Shown in pieces: positions 13,271 to 32,602 of a stretch of 64,000 nucleotides of DNA. Source of the stretch: Methylococcales bacterium (GTDB lineage: Bacteria; Pseudomonadota; Gammaproteobacteria; Methylococcales; Methylomonadaceae); NCBI GenBank assembly GCA_030753675.1, contig JASMBU010000002.1:1-64000 (forward strand), read 5' to 3'. Numbering within the stretch: position 1 is the stretch's first letter; the number at the start of each line of letters is the position of its first letter. Below the pieces are notes generated by a model, which did not search any database, was not told the origin of the DNA, and was given only the letters and a program-made list of their open reading frames with translations. The translations under genes and the position numbers were made by a program.

Positions 13271-13819
13271 ATGGTGGACTTTAGAGGGACGACAATTGTA
13301 TCCGTGCGGCGCGGTGACCGCGTCGTTATCGGTGGCGATGGTCAGGTAACTTTAGGCAATACAGTGATGAAGGGAAATGCTCGAAAAGTACGGCGATTGT
13401 ATCATGATCAGGTGATTGCTGGTTTTGCGGGTGCAACGGCAGATGCTTTTACGTTGTTTGAACATTTTGAGGGTAAGCTTGAGAAGCATCGAGGCAATTT
13501 AACGCGTGCGGCGGTTGAAATGGCAAAAGATTGGCGAACAGATCGAGCATTAAGACGGTTGGAGGCCTTATTGGCTATTGCTGATTCGAAGGTTTCATTG
13601 ATAATTTCAGGGACAGGAGACGTTATTGAGCCAGAACATAATTTGATGGCGATTGGTTCTGGAGGGCCTTATGCGCAATCAGCAGCACGTGCGTTATTAG
13701 AAAACACAGAATTAAATGCTTACGAGATTGTTGAAAAATCGTTAACGATAGCGGGAGACATATGTATTTATACCAATCACAATTTACGTATTGAAGAACT
13801 TGCAACGGAATCAGAATAA
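13271..13819 (+). CDS. hslV: ATP-dependent protease peptidase subunit HslV
   Basis: This 182-residue subunit forms the double-hexamer peptidase core of the HslUV (ClpYQ) protease that degrades misfolded and regulatory proteins in the cytoplasm. The N-terminus [16 protein letters not shown] contains the catalytic threonine, the first of the TT pair, exposed by processing. The proteasome-like motifs [33 protein letters not shown] and [16 protein letters not shown] are intact. Length is normal. It is 10 bp upstream of hslU. The ATG at 13271 has no obvious ribosome binding site but is supported by the conserved N-terminus. Confidence 0.97.
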
Positions 13820-13829
13820 TTAATTTGCT

Positions 13830-15149
13830 ATGACACAAATGACACCAAAAGAAATTGTACATGAACTTGATAAACACATTGTTGGCCAGGCTAATGCCAA
13901 ACGTGCTGTCGCCATAGCACTTCGTAATCGATGGCGGCGATTATTAGTAGATTTATCACTACGTGATGAGATAACGCCGAAAAATATTTTAATGATCGGG
14001 CCGACGGGTGTAGGAAAAACTGAAATTGCCCGTCGTTTAGCGCGGTTAGCGAATGCACCTTTTATTAAAGTCGAGGCTACTAAGTTTACTGAAGTGGGTT
14101 ATGTCGGGCGTGATGTTGAATCCATCATCCGTGATTTGGTCGATACGGCTGTTAAGATGAATCGTGAGACAGAGGTTAAGAAAGTCCAAAATAGGGCGAT
14201 GGATGCTGCTGAAGATCGTGTATTAGATATTTTATTGCCTGCAGCGGATAATACCAATCTATCGGCATCAGAGACAGCGACGCGACAAAAAATGCGTAAG
14301 AAGTTAAGAGAAGGCGATTTTGATAAAAAAGATATTGAAATAGACGTGCAGGAAAATAATGCTGGTTTGGAAATTATGGCTCCTCCGGGCATGGAGGAAA
14401 TGACCAATCAGTTGCAAGGCATGTTTCAGAATATGCATACGGGGAAAACCCATTCAAGGAAATTGCCGATTAAAGATGCGATACAACTTCTAAAGGATGA
14501 AGAAGCGAATAAAATGATTAATGAAGAAGAGCTGAAGATGTCGGCTGTTCGCTCAGCGGAGCAAAACGGAATAGTTTTTATTGATGAAATTGATAAAGTT
14601 TGCAAGCGTTCTGAAAGCGGTGGCGGTGATGTTTCTAGGGAGGGTGTGCAACGAGATTTGTTACCGATGGTTGAAGGCAGTACAGTCAATACGAAATATG
14701 GCATGATTAAAACCGATCATATTCTTTTTATTGCTGCTGGTGCTTTTCATCTCACTAAGCCATCTGATTTGATACCTGAGTTACAAGGGCGTTTTCCTAT
14801 TCGTGTTGAATTAGAACCACTTTCAGTCGAAGATTTTGTGCGTATTTTGACTGAGCCTGATGCTTCATTGACCGATCAATACAAAGCACTATTAGCGACA
14901 GAAGGTGTCGCGTTAACATTTTCTGAAGATGGAATACAACGTATTGCAGAAACGAGTTGGCATGTTAATGAGACCACAGAAAATATTGGTGCGCGTCGGT
15001 TGCATACTATTTTGGAGCGATTGTTGGAAACAATTTCCTTTGACGCGCCAGATTTAGTTGAAAGCGCCTTAATCGTTGACGCGGCTTATGTTGAGCAACA
15101 CTTAACTACATTTGCTGAGGATGAAGACTTAAGTCGTTATATTTTGTAG
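13830..15149 (+). CDS. hslU: ATP-dependent protease ATPase subunit HslU
   Basis: HslU is the AAA+ unfoldase that feeds substrates to HslV. The 439-residue protein has the Walker A motif [15 protein letters not shown] (about residues 56-70), the pore motif GYVGRDVES, the inserted I-domain at about 110-240, Walker [10 protein letters not shown], and a sensor-2 [17 protein letters not shown]. The C-terminus ends in YIL, suitable for docking into HslV. It follows hslV by 10 bp, as in most proteobacteria. Confidence 0.98.
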
Positions 15150-26651: not shown

Positions 26652-27654
26652 CTATCGCTCTTTTTTTTCGGGGATGAGTAATATTTTTCCAACATGGTCA
26701 TTTCTTTCCATATAGTTGTGTGTAGCGGGTGCATCGTTGAGTGAGAACTGATGACTGATAATAGGTTTAATTTTCTTGGCTGCAATAAGTGGCCAGACTT
26801 GTTGTCGTAGCGCTTGGGCAATAGCGGTCTTAAAGGTGTCGTTCCGGGCTCTGAGTGTAGAGCCTGTCAGCGTTAATCGTTTTAATAGGAATGGGATGAG
26901 GTTGATTTCACTTTTAGGGTGTTGTTGAACGGCGAGTTGAATTAATCGAGCATCCGGCGCCATACACTTTATATTTTTGGGCAGATAGTCTCCACCGATG
27001 ATATCGAGGATGACATCAACACCCCGTCCTTGAGTGAGTTTTTTAACAGCCGTTACAAAGTTATTGGTGTGGTAATTAATCGCAGTCATTGCGCCGTGAG
27101 ATTCGCAGAAATGACATTTTTCATCCGATGAGGTGGTGGTAATGACAGAAATATTAAAAGCATGTGCTAATTGTATAGCGGTCGTTCCAATGCCGCTTGT
27201 TCCGCCATGAACCAGTAACGTTTTGCAGTTGTGCATGGTCAAATAAATTACTCCAGACGGTAAAAAATGTTTCAGGTATTCCTGCCACATGAATTAGTGA
27301 CGTATGAGCCGGTACGGGTAGGCACAATTGCGCATTGGCGAGGCAATATTCAGCATAGCCACCTCCTGATACGAGGGCACAAACCGAATCGCCCATGGTG
27401 AGGGTTTTAACATCAGTTGCAAGGGCAACAACGTGTCCTGAAATCTCAAGGCCGAAAATAAAAGTGATGCCTCGAGGTGCAAGGTAGAGGCCTTGACATT
27501 GCATAATATCGGGTCGATTAACGCCGGCGGCAACAACTTTAATGAGAACATGACCGGGGTTTAATGACGGTGTGGGATAATAGTCAGCAATAGGAGTGTT
27601 AGCATCGCCAGCGTGTTGAAAAGCAATGGCCAACATTTTTGTAGGGATAGACAT
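26652..27654 (-). pseudogene. Frameshifted NAD(P)H quinone oxidoreductase (PIG3/zinc-independent MDR family)
   Basis: Two overlapping leftward frames together give a complete PIG3-type medium-chain reductase. The N-terminal part (27154-27654) has AAGVNRPDIMQCQGLY, GLEISGHVVALATDV and PETFFTVWSNLFDHAQLQN. The second part (from about 27225 down to 26652) continues with KTLLVHGGTSGIGTTAIQLA (NADPH-binding loop), INYHTNNF, VDVILDIIGGDYL and LTLTGSTLRAR. The frame changes at about 27219-27228, around CTGCAAAACG. Compared with the family's usual QxGETLLVHGG, one or two residues are missing, which would fit loss of about 8 nt between short CAAAACG-like repeats. As written no full-length enzyme is made; a sequencing error is possible. 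Confidence 0.85.
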
Positions 27655-28667: not shown

Positions 28668-29603
28668 ATGAAAATACAATGGTATCCAGGCCATATGCAC
28701 AAGGCCTTTAAAGAAATGAAAGAAACACTGAATCGTGTTAGTTTGGTGATTGAAATTGTTGATGCCCGTATTCCCTTTAGCAGTTCAAATCCGGTACTTT
28801 CGGAATTACGAGGCGATAAGCCTTGTATTACTATTTTAAATAAAAGTGATTTAGCCGACCCTGATACGACCCAGCGCTGGCAAGATTATATGGGCCATGA
28901 ACACGGGATAAAGTCGTTAGCATTAACAGCTCAAGAACCTCATAAGGTCAGTGAGTTGCCTGATTTATGTCAGAAAATTTTAGGATTTAAAAAAGATGAT
29001 ATAAAATTGATCAATATGATGATTGTCGGCATTCCGAATGTGGGTAAATCAACACTGATTAATACGTTAATAGGTAGAACCATTGCGAAGACAGGAAATG
29101 AGCCCGCAGTAACGAAAATGCAGCAGCGGGTTCGTTTGGGTGATAATTTGGTGCTATTAGATACCCCGGGAGTTTTGTGGCCCAATGTTAAAAATAAAAA
29201 TAGTGGCTATCGACTAGCAACAACCGGGGCGATTAAAGATACGGCTATGGAGTATTATGACGTCGCTTTTTTTGCCGTTAATTACTTATCCCATGCTTAT
29301 CCTGACTATCTAATTAATCGTTATCAATTCTCAGAATTACCGAATGAAGCCGAAGCTATTCTTTATGAAATTGGCAAGCAGCGAGGTTGTTTACAACGGG
29401 GCGGACGTATTGATAATGATAAGGTCGGCAAGCTTTTTCTTCGTGAATTTCGTTCGGGAAGTTTTGGACGTATAACCATGGAAACACCGGAAATGATTAC
29501 TCAAGAATTAGCCGAATTAATGGTTTTAGAAGCACAAAAAGAAGCTGAAAAGTCAGCAAGGAAGAGTCGTTGGAAAAAGGGTCAGCCGAACAAGAACAAC
29601 TAA
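28668..29603 (+). CDS. rbgA: Ribosome biogenesis GTPase YlqF/RbgA
   Basis: This 311-residue GTPase shows the circularly permuted order typical of the YlqF/YawG group: G4 LNKSDLAD (about residues 57-64) precedes G1 GIPNVGKST (about 121-129), and G3 DTPGVLWPN follows. The conserved N-terminal WYPGHMHKA is present. RbgA promotes late 50S subunit assembly in Bacillus; the gene is patchily distributed in gammaproteobacteria. The basic C-terminal tail (SARKSRWKKGQPNKNN) may contact rRNA. Confidence 0.9.
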   Translation: MKIQWYPGHMHKAFKEMKETLNRVSLVIEIVDARIPFSSSNPVLSELRGDKPCITILNKSDLADPDTTQRWQDYMGHEHGIKSLALTAQEPHKVSELPDLCQKILGFKKDDIKLINMMIVGIPNVGKSTLINTLIGRTIAKTGNEPAVTKMQQRVRLGDNLVLLDTPGVLWPNVKNKNSGYRLATTGAIKDTAMEYYDVAFFAVNYLSHAYPDYLINRYQFSELPNEAEAILYEIGKQRGCLQRGGRIDNDKVGKLFLREFRSGSFGRITMETPEMITQELAELMVLEAQKEAEKSARKSRWKKGQPNKNN

Positions 29604-29719
29604 GAGCAAAGTATTGTAAAAAACGATAGTTACGCTGAATTCATGGTAAGGGGTATTTTTGCACATAAGTATTTGTTTTTAAGGATAAAAGTAGCGTGTT
29701 GCCTGCAGAGAAAAAAATA

Positions 29720-29746
29720 TTAGCACTCTGTTGTAAGGAGTGCTAA
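29720..29746. promoter_or_regulatory. CIRCE operator (HrcA site) upstream of rpoH
   Basis: The sequence is a perfect match to the CIRCE consensus: TTAGCACTC (29720-29728), a 9-bp spacer, and GAGTGCTAA (29738-29746). CIRCE is bound by the heat-labile repressor HrcA and usually controls groESL or dnaK operons. Here it lies 33 bp upstream of the rpoH start codon, in the likely promoter or leader, which implies that HrcA represses sigma-32 synthesis. No hrcA gene is in the window. Confidence 0.92.
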
Positions 29747-29778
29747 TATAAAGCTGTGTAAAACCAAATGAGTGTGAA

Positions 29779-30645
29779 ATGAATCAAAACATGACATTAC
29801 CTTATAATTTGTCAGCGGCTTCATTTGATGGTTATTTAACGGCCATAAATCAATTAGAGCCTTTAAGTTTAGAGCAAGAGCAAGAGTTGGCGAGACGTTT
29901 TCATGACGATAATGATCTAGAAGCCGCACGATTGCTCGTGATGTCTAATTTAAGATTTGTCGTGCATGTGGCGCGTGGTTATGCGGGTTATGGCTTATCG
30001 TTCAATGATATTGTTCAGGAAGGTAATATCGGTTTAATGAAAGCCGTCAAACGGTTTGATCCGAATGTCGGCGTACGCTTGATTACTTTTGCAGTACATT
30101 GGATTCGTGCTGAAATTCATGAGTATGTCATTAAAAATTGGCGCGTAGTGAAAATTGCGACAACTAAAGCCCAACGGAAATTGTTCTTTAATTTAAGAAA
30201 ATCGAAGAAAAAGTTGGGGTGGCTAAGTCATGATGAAGCGAAAGCGATTGCCGGTGATTTAGGGGTGAAGTTGGAAAGCGTTTATGAAATGGAAAAACGT
30301 CTGAGTGCCAGTGATTTGGCTTTTGATTTAAAGGCAGAAGATAATTCGGATCATGGTGAAAAAGTTGTGACCACGCCGGCGCAATTTTTAGTCCAACAAG
30401 GAACTGATCCGGCACAAGTCCTAGAAAAAGAAGACTGGGGGAGCCATAATAATCAATTGATGTTTCAGGCAATAGCTAAGTTAGATGAGCGCAGTCAGGA
30501 TATTTTACAAAATCGTTGGTTAAATGAGCAAAAAATGACCTTACAAGATTTAGCTAATCGTTATTCGGTATCTCCTGAACGTATTCGGCAATTAGAAAAG
30601 GTTGCCATGGGAAAAATTAAAGAAGCGATGCTCTTAGCGTCTTAA
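29779..30645 (+). CDS. rpoH: RNA polymerase heat-shock sigma factor RpoH (sigma-32)
   Basis: The 288-residue sigma factor has region 2 (LVMSNLRFVVHVARGYAGYG, DIVQEGNIGLMKAVKRFDP, ITFAVHWIRAEIHEYV), the RpoH-box QRKLFFNLRKSKK that separates RpoH from RpoD and RpoS, and region 4 (LQDLANRYSVSPERIRQLEK). It directs RNA polymerase to chaperone and protease genes such as hslVU, found elsewhere in this window. The CIRCE operator just upstream suggests an HrcA-RpoH hierarchy. A long hairpin terminator follows the gene. Confidence 0.97.
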   Translation: MNQNMTLPYNLSAASFDGYLTAINQLEPLSLEQEQELARRFHDDNDLEAARLLVMSNLRFVVHVARGYAGYGLSFNDIVQEGNIGLMKAVKRFDPNVGVRLITFAVHWIRAEIHEYVIKNWRVVKIATTKAQRKLFFNLRKSKKKLGWLSHDEAKAIAGDLGVKLESVYEMEKRLSASDLAFDLKAEDNSDHGEKVVTTPAQFLVQQGTDPAQVLEKEDWGSHNNQLMFQAIAKLDERSQDILQNRWLNEQKMTLQDLANRYSVSPERIRQLEKVAMGKIKEAMLLAS

Positions 30646-30657
30646 GCGTGAGCCAGT

Positions 30658-30695
30658 GAACTAAAAAAAGCGCGGCAACGCGCAATTTTTAGTTC
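30658..30695. terminator. Rho-independent terminator after rpoH
   Basis: GAACTAAAAAAAGCGCG (30658-30674), the loop GCAA, and CGCGCAATTTTTAGTTC (30679-30695) pair with only two A-A mismatches. The stem has a GC core followed by TTTTT, as expected of an intrinsic terminator for rpoH. Confidence 0.8.
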
Positions 30696-30736
30696 AAATA
30701 CTTTTTCAACCTTCGTACAAACCCCTTGTAAGTCAC

Positions 30737-30756
30737 TTTGCATTTTGTAATGCAAA
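30737..30756. repeat. Dyad TTTGCATT-N4-AATGCAAA upstream of the MORN gene
   Basis: A perfect 8-bp inverted repeat with a TTGT spacer lies about 85 bp before the MORN lipoprotein start. It could be an operator or a small RNA hairpin; no known regulator consensus was recognised. Confidence 0.45.
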
Positions 30757-30810
30757 TAATCCTACCCTTTGACCAAGTACTTTCTTATTAGAGGTTAATT
30801 CAAGTAAACT

Positions 30811-30828
30811 AAAAGTTGTTCAACTTTT
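30811..30828. promoter_or_regulatory. Palindrome AAAAGTTG-TT-CAACTTTT next to the MORN gene start
   Basis: A perfect 8-bp dyad with a 2-bp spacer ends 13 bp before the ATG at 30842, overlapping the ribosome-entry region. As DNA it could be an operator; as RNA its short spacer makes a hairpin less favourable. No regulator was identified. Confidence 0.5.
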
Positions 30829-30841
30829 ATCTGCCAGAGTT

Positions 30842-32602
30842 ATGCCACGAGTTTTTGCTAACATTTTTTTTCTTTCTTTTTTAATCCCAGGGTGTACCTT
30901 TATTGAACAAGGCTCTATTCGTTCTGATTCTGAGGGACGTTATGTCGGTGTATTGGTAGACGGTGTTAGACAAGGGCAGGGGCGTTATACTTTTCCAGAG
31001 GGTCAGTTTTATCAGGGTGAATTTGACCAAGGTAATTTTCATGGGAAAGGCCGTTTTCAATATGGGAATGGTGACTACTATGACGGTGAATGGATCAATA
31101 ACCAGCGTCAAGGAAATGGCATTTATCACTTTAACTCAGGGAGTGAATATAAGGGGCTTTGGAAAAATGGCCAACAAGAAGGGCAAGGTGTCTTAAGTGA
31201 AGAAAATGGTAATCAGTATCAGGGTAATTGGTTGAAAGGATTGCCACACGGAGAAGGTGTTAAACGTTATGCCGATGGGCGGCATTATCAAGGGCAGTTT
31301 ATTCAAGGAAAATTTTCAGGTTCCGGTGTTTTTACAACCCCTAACGGAAGGCGTTATAACGGACAGTGGAGAGAAGGGAAGCGTTCTGGGCACGGTGAGT
31401 TTATATTTATTAACGGTGATCGATACCAAGGACTTTGGGGTAATAATCAATTAAATGGACTGGGACGTTATGAATTTGCAAATGGTTACTCTTATCAAGG
31501 AAAGTTCTCTCAAGGGCGTATTCAAGGTACTGGAAAGTTCGTTGTCCCCGACCGTTTTGAATATGTGGGTGAGATACAAGACAGTCAATTTCAGGGTTAT
31601 GGGCGTTTAATTTTTAACGACGGTTTAACATATTCAGGGAATTTTATAGCCGGTAAATTTAATGGGAATGGTATTTTTTCATTTAAAGATGGCGGACAAT
31701 ACAGCGGTGAATGGAAAAATAGTTTGCCTGAAGGGTATGGTCGTTATCGTGCGTCAAATAAGGCTGACTTTTCTGGGCGCTGGAAAAATGGTGTCCTGTT
31801 AGGTGGCACAGAAATTATAAATTTAACGATACCCGGAGATTTTCGGGGTGTTGCTAACCTGTCGTCGACTAATTTAGAGGCGTGGGCGTTAGCGGCAACG
31901 GGTGTGGGGGTGTTTGTTTCACCCCAAGGACATGTATTAACGACCCAGAATGTCTCGAAAGGGTGTGAGCTCATCACATTTAATAAACAAGGTGCCGAAT
32001 TTGTTGCGGGCGTTCGTGCTGAGGATCACAACGTGAATTTAACACTGCTAACGACAGTGATCACTCCGGAAACATTCTTAACGTTAAGTCATAAGGATAT
32101 TTTTATTATGAAAGAATTATGGGCGTTAAGGGCCTTCGCTAAGATGCCACGAGCGGTGAAAAAAAGTCTTGAATCAGTGCTTGTGTCAGCTGTGAGTGGG
32201 GTAAAAAATAAAGCCACTGAATTACAAATAGAAGGTGACTTTGAAACTATTTTAGCGGGAAGTCCGGTGGTTGATAACAACGGCAGGTTAACGGCCTTAG
32301 TCGAGGATAAGCGCGCCCTTCAAATGGGCTATGATTTTTGGCGTCAAGTCCCTGAAAATACCCAGTTTGCAATTAAATCCAAGGCTATTGAGAGGTTCTT
32401 AAATACGGAAGGGCTCTTATACCCATTAGAAGAAGATCAAGTTCTGTCATACTCGGGTTTAGAAACGCTTTTATCCAAGGCGACAGTCCATTTGTCCTGT
32501 TGGATGAGCGCATCTAAAGTTGAAGCATTCAAAGACACTAAAATATTATTTGGGGATGTGATAAAGCCCAAATTTTCTAAACCGTTAGCGTCCCCATTTT
32601 AG
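30842..32602 (+). CDS. MORN-repeat lipoprotein with a degenerate trypsin-like domain
   Basis: The 586-residue protein begins with a lipoprotein signal ending in the lipobox LIPGC (Cys18). Residues of about 35-335 hold some 12-13 MORN repeats of about 23 residues, of the form YxGxWxxGxxxGxGxxxxxxG. A C-terminal region (about 345-530) resembles trypsin-like/HtrA peptidases: GVFVSPQGHVLTTQNV, DHNVNLTLL and ILAGSPVVDNNGRL. At the expected catalytic positions I read Asn370 for His, Asn399 for Asp and Ala472 for Ser, so it is probably a pseudoprotease. MORN domains often bind membrane lipids or proteins. The gene is flanked by rpoH and a uracil-DNA glycosylase and is not obviously in an operon with either. 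Function unknown. Confidence 0.85.
   Translation: MPRVFANIFFLSFLIPGCTFIEQGSIRSDSEGRYVGVLVDGVRQGQGRYTFPEGQFYQGEFDQGNFHGKGRFQYGNGDYYDGEWINNQRQGNGIYHFNSGSEYKGLWKNGQQEGQGVLSEENGNQYQGNWLKGLPHGEGVKRYADGRHYQGQFIQGKFSGSGVFTTPNGRRYNGQWREGKRSGHGEFIFINGDRYQGLWGNNQLNGLGRYEFANGYSYQGKFSQGRIQGTGKFVVPDRFEYVGEIQDSQFQGYGRLIFNDGLTYSGNFIAGKFNGNGIFSFKDGGQYSGEWKNSLPEGYGRYRASNKADFSGRWKNGVLLGGTEIINLTIPGDFRGVANLSSTNLEAWALAATGVGVFVSPQGHVLTTQNVSKGCELITFNKQGAEFVAGVRAEDHNVNLTLLTTVITPETFLTLSHKDIFIMKELWALRAFAKMPRAVKKSLESVLVSAVSGVKNKATELQIEGDFETILAGSPVVDNNGRLTALVEDKRALQMGYDFWRQVPENTQFAIKSKAIERFLNTEGLLYPLEEDQVLSYSGLETLLSKATVHLSCWMSASKVEAFKDTKILFGDVIKPKFSKPLASPF

Follow-up and report, generated by a model that had tools for sequence, protein, structure and literature searches.

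A perfect CIRCE element upstream of rpoH in a Methylococcales bacterium and the occurrence of such sites with hrcA in gammaproteobacteria

The HrcA repressor with its operator CIRCE and the heat-shock sigma factor sigma-32 (RpoH) are commonly presented as two heat-shock systems that work in parallel. In Bacillus subtilis and Helicobacter pylori, HrcA acts through CIRCE to control the groESL and hrcA-dnaK operons, GroE keeps HrcA active, and the HrcA sites of H. pylori overlap core promoter elements (accessible parts of PMC6032397). The locus described here shares the operator sequence and the repressor family with these classical systems; in contrast to them, where chaperone operons are the targets, a sigma factor gene carries the operator as well.

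A CIRCE element before rpoH is already known as a prediction. In the deltaproteobacterium Geobacter sulfurreducens, a perfect CIRCE was predicted at position −51 of rpoH (Rodionov et al. 2004, PMC545781). As in the genome considered below, CIRCE was also placed there on hrcA-grpE-dnaK-dnaJ and on groESL, so that the three targets are the same (PMC545781). However, that prediction concerned one species among those studied, and the available portion of the report makes no mention of a sigma-E promoter under the site (PMC545781).

The rpoH promoter P3 of Escherichia coli is transcribed by sigma-E, according to the accessible parts of two reports (PMC8103513 and PMC8745692). A sigma-E-type −35 and −10 are likewise present at rpoH in most site-bearing gammaproteobacteria analyzed here, but CIRCE covers the −10 in these bacteria, and the genus of our locus lacks the sigma-E elements. 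E. coli, which was included among the control genomes, has no hrcA. To our knowledge, its rpoH is also without a CIRCE operator. Heat-shock regulons of beta-, gamma-, and epsilonproteobacteria were reportedly the subject of a study by Permina and Gelfand. Beyond PMC545781, the accessible open-access literature yielded no statement on HrcA control of rpoH, and neither a class-wide CIRCE-rpoH pattern nor a shared sigma-E promoter was found in it; the Permina and Gelfand study may report any of these.

The CIRCE element and its genomic setting

The window, i.e., the whole 64-kb (64,000-nt) stretch of DNA that was analyzed, contains the sequence TTAGCACTC-TGTTGTAAG-GAGTGCTAA, which matches the CIRCE consensus TTAGCACTC-N9-GAGTGCTAA with 0 mismatches (Table 1). 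The presence of CIRCE upstream of rpoH is thus confirmed, and an earlier sequence-only reading was right to call it an exact inverted repeat with a 9-bp spacer. That reading also placed the element 33 bp before the sigma-32 gene; the adjacency stands, but the gap to the rpoH ATG is 32 bp by our count. There was no other match in the window at up to 3 mismatches, with a mean of 0.03 in shuffled sequences. Given the base composition, the 18 fixed CIRCE bases are expected 9e-7 times per window and 2.4e-5 times per 1.72-Mb genome. A comparison of five genomes belonging to the genus of the window showed 18 of 18 arm positions to be invariant, compared to 2 of 9 spacer positions, 24 of 32 leader positions, and 16 of 60 upstream positions.

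Table 1. Features of the rpoH region, numbered by position in the window
Feature	Positions	Strand	Basis
ylqF, ribosome biogenesis GTPase, upstream neighbor of rpoH	28668..29603	+	TIGR03596 over cut-off
Full inverted repeat, perfect 12-bp arms flanking the 9-nt spacer	29717..29749	+	computed
CIRCE operator, perfect consensus, 9-nt spacer	29720..29746	+	0 mismatches, sole match in the window
Candidate extended −10, TGC-TAATAT, right arm and next three bases	29741..29749	+	inferred
Predicted short leader	29756..29778	+	placed from the candidate −10, if transcription starts ~7 nt past it
rpoH, heat-shock sigma factor sigma-32, 288 aa	29779..30645	+	TIGR02392 and NF005143 over cut-off

The downstream gene scores 384.9 bits against TIGR02392 (cut-off, 323.1), which bears out its earlier assignment as sigma-32. 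It is the single rpoH copy of the genome, the two remaining matches being weak ones (28% and 41% identity). A weaker second sigma factor match with one TAG stop (locus L006, G000:C6:16827-17597, where G000 is the window's genome) may be a broken gene for a stationary-phase type sigma factor. The upstream neighbor of rpoH varies: a family search identified ftsX before rpoH in the relative G014, and the FtsX C terminus was recognized at the same place in several others. The hslVU genes had been correctly noticed in the window, where they occupy 13271-15149. As to their suggested link to the RpoH regulon, no sigma-32 consensus promoter was detected upstream of hslV at the threshold used, but none was detected before groES, hrcA, or rpoH either, so that the scan says little.

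Two further observations come from translations. On the minus strand, the frames 27154-27654 and 26652-27290 overlap, and together (26652-27654) they resemble one zinc-type/quinone oxidoreductase gene broken by a frameshift. On the plus strand, the gene 3′ of rpoH (30842-32602) specifies a protein whose N-terminal half contains a long series of MORN-like repeats (YQGEW type).

The genome of the window (1.72 Mb in 85 contigs, 99.5% complete) contains one hrcA gene, scoring 315.6 bits against TIGR00331 (cut-off, 197.2). Three CIRCE sites were found in it at up to 3 mismatches, upstream of groES, hrcA, and rpoH, the hrcA site having 1 mismatch. Since frames recognized from their translations as grpE, dnaK, and dnaJ lie 3′ of hrcA on the same strand, both chaperone operons bear the operator together with rpoH. 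The search for hrcA and for further CIRCE sites that had been proposed as a check therefore gave a positive answer, while the contrast that had been drawn with CIRCE on groESL or dnaK does not hold in this genome.

Distribution of the rpoH site and of hrcA

The sequence-only reading had suggested comparing rpoH upstream regions across Methylococcales. We used a set of 61 relatives, including the window's own genome; RpoH was matched at 1e-60 in 58 of these, and the upstream DNA of all 58 was read. CIRCE with up to 4 mismatches precedes rpoH in 52 of the 58, at 28 to 171 bp from the start (median, 34 bp). A match to hrcA was obtained in 54 of the 61 genomes, over the cut-off in 53. The gene and an rpoH site with up to 3 mismatches occur together in 47 of the 58, and in another 5 (G017, G024, G048, G053, and G059), hrcA is missing and the site is absent or decayed, G053 and G059 being examples of decay alongside hrcA loss.

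Six relatives depart from this pattern. Three have the site but no intact hrcA: G001 (65% complete), G012, and G033. In G012, nine stops interrupt the hrcA match (G012:C2:54008-54610), but the CIRCE before rpoH remains perfect, as if the repressor had been lost recently. Three others, G023, G028, and G058 (4 mismatches), have hrcA but no standard site. A repeat may have split the rpoH site of G023 between contigs. In G028, the CIRCE before rpoH (L020) has perfect arms but a spacer of 8 nt rather than 9 nt, and the hrcA match consists of two overlapping stretches, as if frameshifted.

The class sample comprised 140 genomes, with an RpoH match at 1e-50 in 130. G000 and G039 were counted with the relatives; without them, the comparison covers the upstream regions of 128 genomes, each from a different family (for G090, one of its two RpoH genes was read). 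CIRCE with up to 3 mismatches was found before rpoH in 89 of the 97 genomes with hrcA versus 4 of the 31 without it (Fisher P = 1.4e-16, a value that ignores shared ancestry). The four genomes with a site and no hrcA are G074, G125, and G171, all three with mismatches, and G178, whose site is perfect; 8 of the 97 hrcA-bearing genomes lack a standard rpoH site. Relic-like or variant-like sites were seen in genomes scored as site-less, e.g., in G157, which has hrcA, and in G127, which does not. Eight further members of the class, taken from the phylum sample, lack both hrcA and the site.

Outside the class, 34 of the 45 genomes of the phylum sample were read, one RpoH gene each; these genomes, including family f154, are probably alphaproteobacteria. 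In f154, 6 of 7 hrcA-bearing genomes have an rpoH CIRCE with up to 3 mismatches, compared to 0 of 6 that lack hrcA (loci L375, L386, L387, L388, L391, and L393). In the other families outside the class, the site was found in 0 of 16 genomes with an hrcA match, one of these matches being a fragment below the cut-off, and in 0 of 5 without. Within this sample, therefore, members of the class usually have the CIRCE-rpoH arrangement, and genomes from outside the class rarely do. As judged by these comparisons, the rpoH site and hrcA are retained or lost jointly across lineages.

Promoter signatures at the operator

The candidate extended −10 within the right arm (TGC-TAATAT) is kept in 5 of 5 genomes of the window's genus. 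Across the class, T occupies the third base past the right arm (TGC-TAnnnT) at 83 of 93 rpoH sites versus 11 of 76 oriented groES and hrcA sites, the latter being 38 sites from the order with both strands read; the two sets differ in taxonomy, so that composition could contribute to the difference. A sigma-70 promoter scan of positions 29300-30900 gave 3 sites (3.8 in shuffles), none of which overlaps CIRCE, and thus lends the extended −10 no support. Folding of the predicted leader does not exceed that of shuffled sequences (z = −0.17), and the palindrome, if transcribed, would form a strong stem (z = −2.83).

A second promoter type became apparent when relatives, one per genus from 34 genera, were aligned on CIRCE. 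The consensus of sigma-E promoters is GAACTT-N16-TCnnA. The aligned sequences have GAACTT at −15 to −10, followed by an A-rich stretch, and T.A after the final TC of the left arm; the hexamer, the spacing, and TCnnA at CIRCE together have the make-up of a sigma-E promoter. In the class, GAAC is present at the −35 place in 61 of 93 site-bearing genomes, against a background of 1.3%. With the presence of rpoE defined by a match at 1e-40, all 61 fall among the 82 site-bearing genomes that have rpoE and none among the 11 that do not (61/82 versus 0/11, P = 2e-6); 21 genomes with both rpoE and the site lack GAAC. The A of TCnnA accompanies GAAC in 56 of 61 genomes and is found in 14 of the 32 without GAAC (P = 8e-7). 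Among relatives with the site, GAAC occurs in 31 of 48 with rpoE over the cut-off versus 0 of 4 without, numbers too small to stand alone.

At control CIRCE sites of the relatives, the −35 was found in 1 of 19 groES sites and 0 of 19 hrcA sites. The groES sites were defined by elimination, as those belonging to neither hrcA nor rpoH, and not by a gene search; L088 of G023, a GAACTT-CIRCE on a contig without groES, was left out of them, the groES gene of G023 being on another contig. The sigma-E pattern was absent at the rpoE loci of two relatives (L068 and L069) and from 1.2 kb around the rpoE start of the window's own genome (G000:C11:201200-202400). The sigma-E assignment therefore rests on the consensus, the spacing, and the co-occurrence with rpoE.

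In the genus of the window, GAACTT and the A of TCnnA are absent in 5 of 5 genomes, and rpoE is over the cut-off in 5 of 5. A rearrangement in this genus may have lost the sigma-E part and retained the operator, a fair but tentative reading, since some relatives with other neighbors still have GAACTT.

Contigs of named genomes were also scanned for GAACTT-N8..11 followed by a perfect CIRCE. This gave at least 117 stretches; the 117 listed were all read and serve as examples, not as a census. Among the matches listed, 106 lie upstream of an RpoH-like frame in the same direction, in genera that include Dyella, Sulfuritalea, Haliea, Alcanivorax, Chitinilyticum, Thioalkalivibrio, and Methylovulum. 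Also among those listed, 2 precede an RpoH in the other direction, 3 a GroES and 1 an HrcA in the other direction, and 5 have no assigned gene, three of these being no more than 300 bases away from where the fetched sequence ends. Overall, CIRCE appears to overlie a sigma-E-type promoter at most rpoH sites of the class, an overlap found in this analysis.

A proposed role for the operator

We propose, with a probability of roughly 0.8, that the element serves HrcA as an operator for repressing rpoH at transcription initiation. HrcA, which in other bacteria depends on free GroEL for its activity, would bind CIRCE over the rpoH promoter and exclude RNA polymerase. When heat-damaged proteins occupy GroEL, HrcA would be released, and rpoH would be transcribed along with groESL and hrcA-grpE-dnaK-dnaJ. 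The promoter used in the window would be the extended −10 that the right arm helps to form. Across most of the class, where CIRCE also covers a sigma-E-type promoter, rpoH would answer jointly to active sigma-E and to released HrcA; the window's genus lacks this second promoter. The site, the rpoH and hrcA genes, the set of three sites in this genome, the conservation, and the joint loss of hrcA and site are read directly from sequence, and HrcA binding, the direction of its effect, the promoter used, and induction by heat are what we infer. Weighing against the proposal are the class genomes that have hrcA and no standard site (8 of 97) or a site and no hrcA (4 of 31), the missing site in hrcA-bearing genomes from outside the class other than f154 (0 of 16), the lack of overlap between CIRCE and any sigma-70 promoter listed, and the chance of read-through from ylqF.

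The sequence-only reading had placed HrcA above RpoH, and the sequence comparison speaks for this part of it: hrcA is present, the operator is at the place expected for the promoter, and site and repressor gene are retained or lost jointly. The peculiarity it saw in the arrangement has to be given up, since CIRCE before rpoH is the rule among hrcA-bearing members of the class (89 of 97) and the Geobacter sulfurreducens case was predicted in 2004. Its premise that a transcription start downstream of the element would preclude repression is partly backwards. A start just downstream fits a repressing operator that lies over the promoter; a start well upstream is the harder case.

Alternatively, HrcA may bind the site while most rpoH mRNA stems from ylqF read-through or from far-upstream starts. 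The operator would then have a minor effect, and the amount of RpoH would depend mainly on its translation and stability, as it does in E. coli, where sigma-32 is under translational control. The terminator scan found no plus-strand terminator-like site between ylqF and rpoH, so that read-through could bypass or weaken the operator, and no sigma-70-like promoter was listed at CIRCE; chaperone control of sigma-32 is, moreover, established in E. coli (accessible parts of PMC6032397). However, the site keeps a fixed place near the rpoH start and is lost with hrcA, and promoter-like signatures coincide with CIRCE in the class, which makes this alternative unlikely.

A considerably less probable reading is that the inverted repeat functions chiefly at the RNA level, as a hairpin of the rpoH mRNA that affects stability or senses temperature, and not as an operator in the DNA. 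Work in Bacillus is reported to have shown a role for CIRCE as RNA in the groESL mRNA, and the stem would be strong if transcribed, but the arms preserve the HrcA consensus beyond what pairing requires and disappear with hrcA. With the predicted start, the stem would also lie outside the mRNA, and the remaining leader does not fold beyond shuffles. A chance palindrome without function is ruled out by its rarity (2.4e-5 per genome) and by its conservation across the order and the class.

With little more than even confidence, we extend the proposal of HrcA repression to beta- and gammaproteobacteria at large. There, the proximal rpoH promoter would be an old two-input gate in which a sigma-E promoter and a sigma-70 extended −10 share one HrcA operator. 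HrcA and sigma-E would together stand above sigma-32, the two textbook heat-shock systems would be arranged in series, and the HrcA-less scheme of E. coli would be derived, having arisen after the loss of hrcA.

Provided that the site functions as its sequence indicates, HrcA would stand above sigma-32 in most gammaproteobacterial families that keep hrcA, with GroEL as the gauge. The frequent overlap with a sigma-E-type promoter would let envelope stress set the attainable strength of rpoH transcription and cytoplasmic folding stress its timing.
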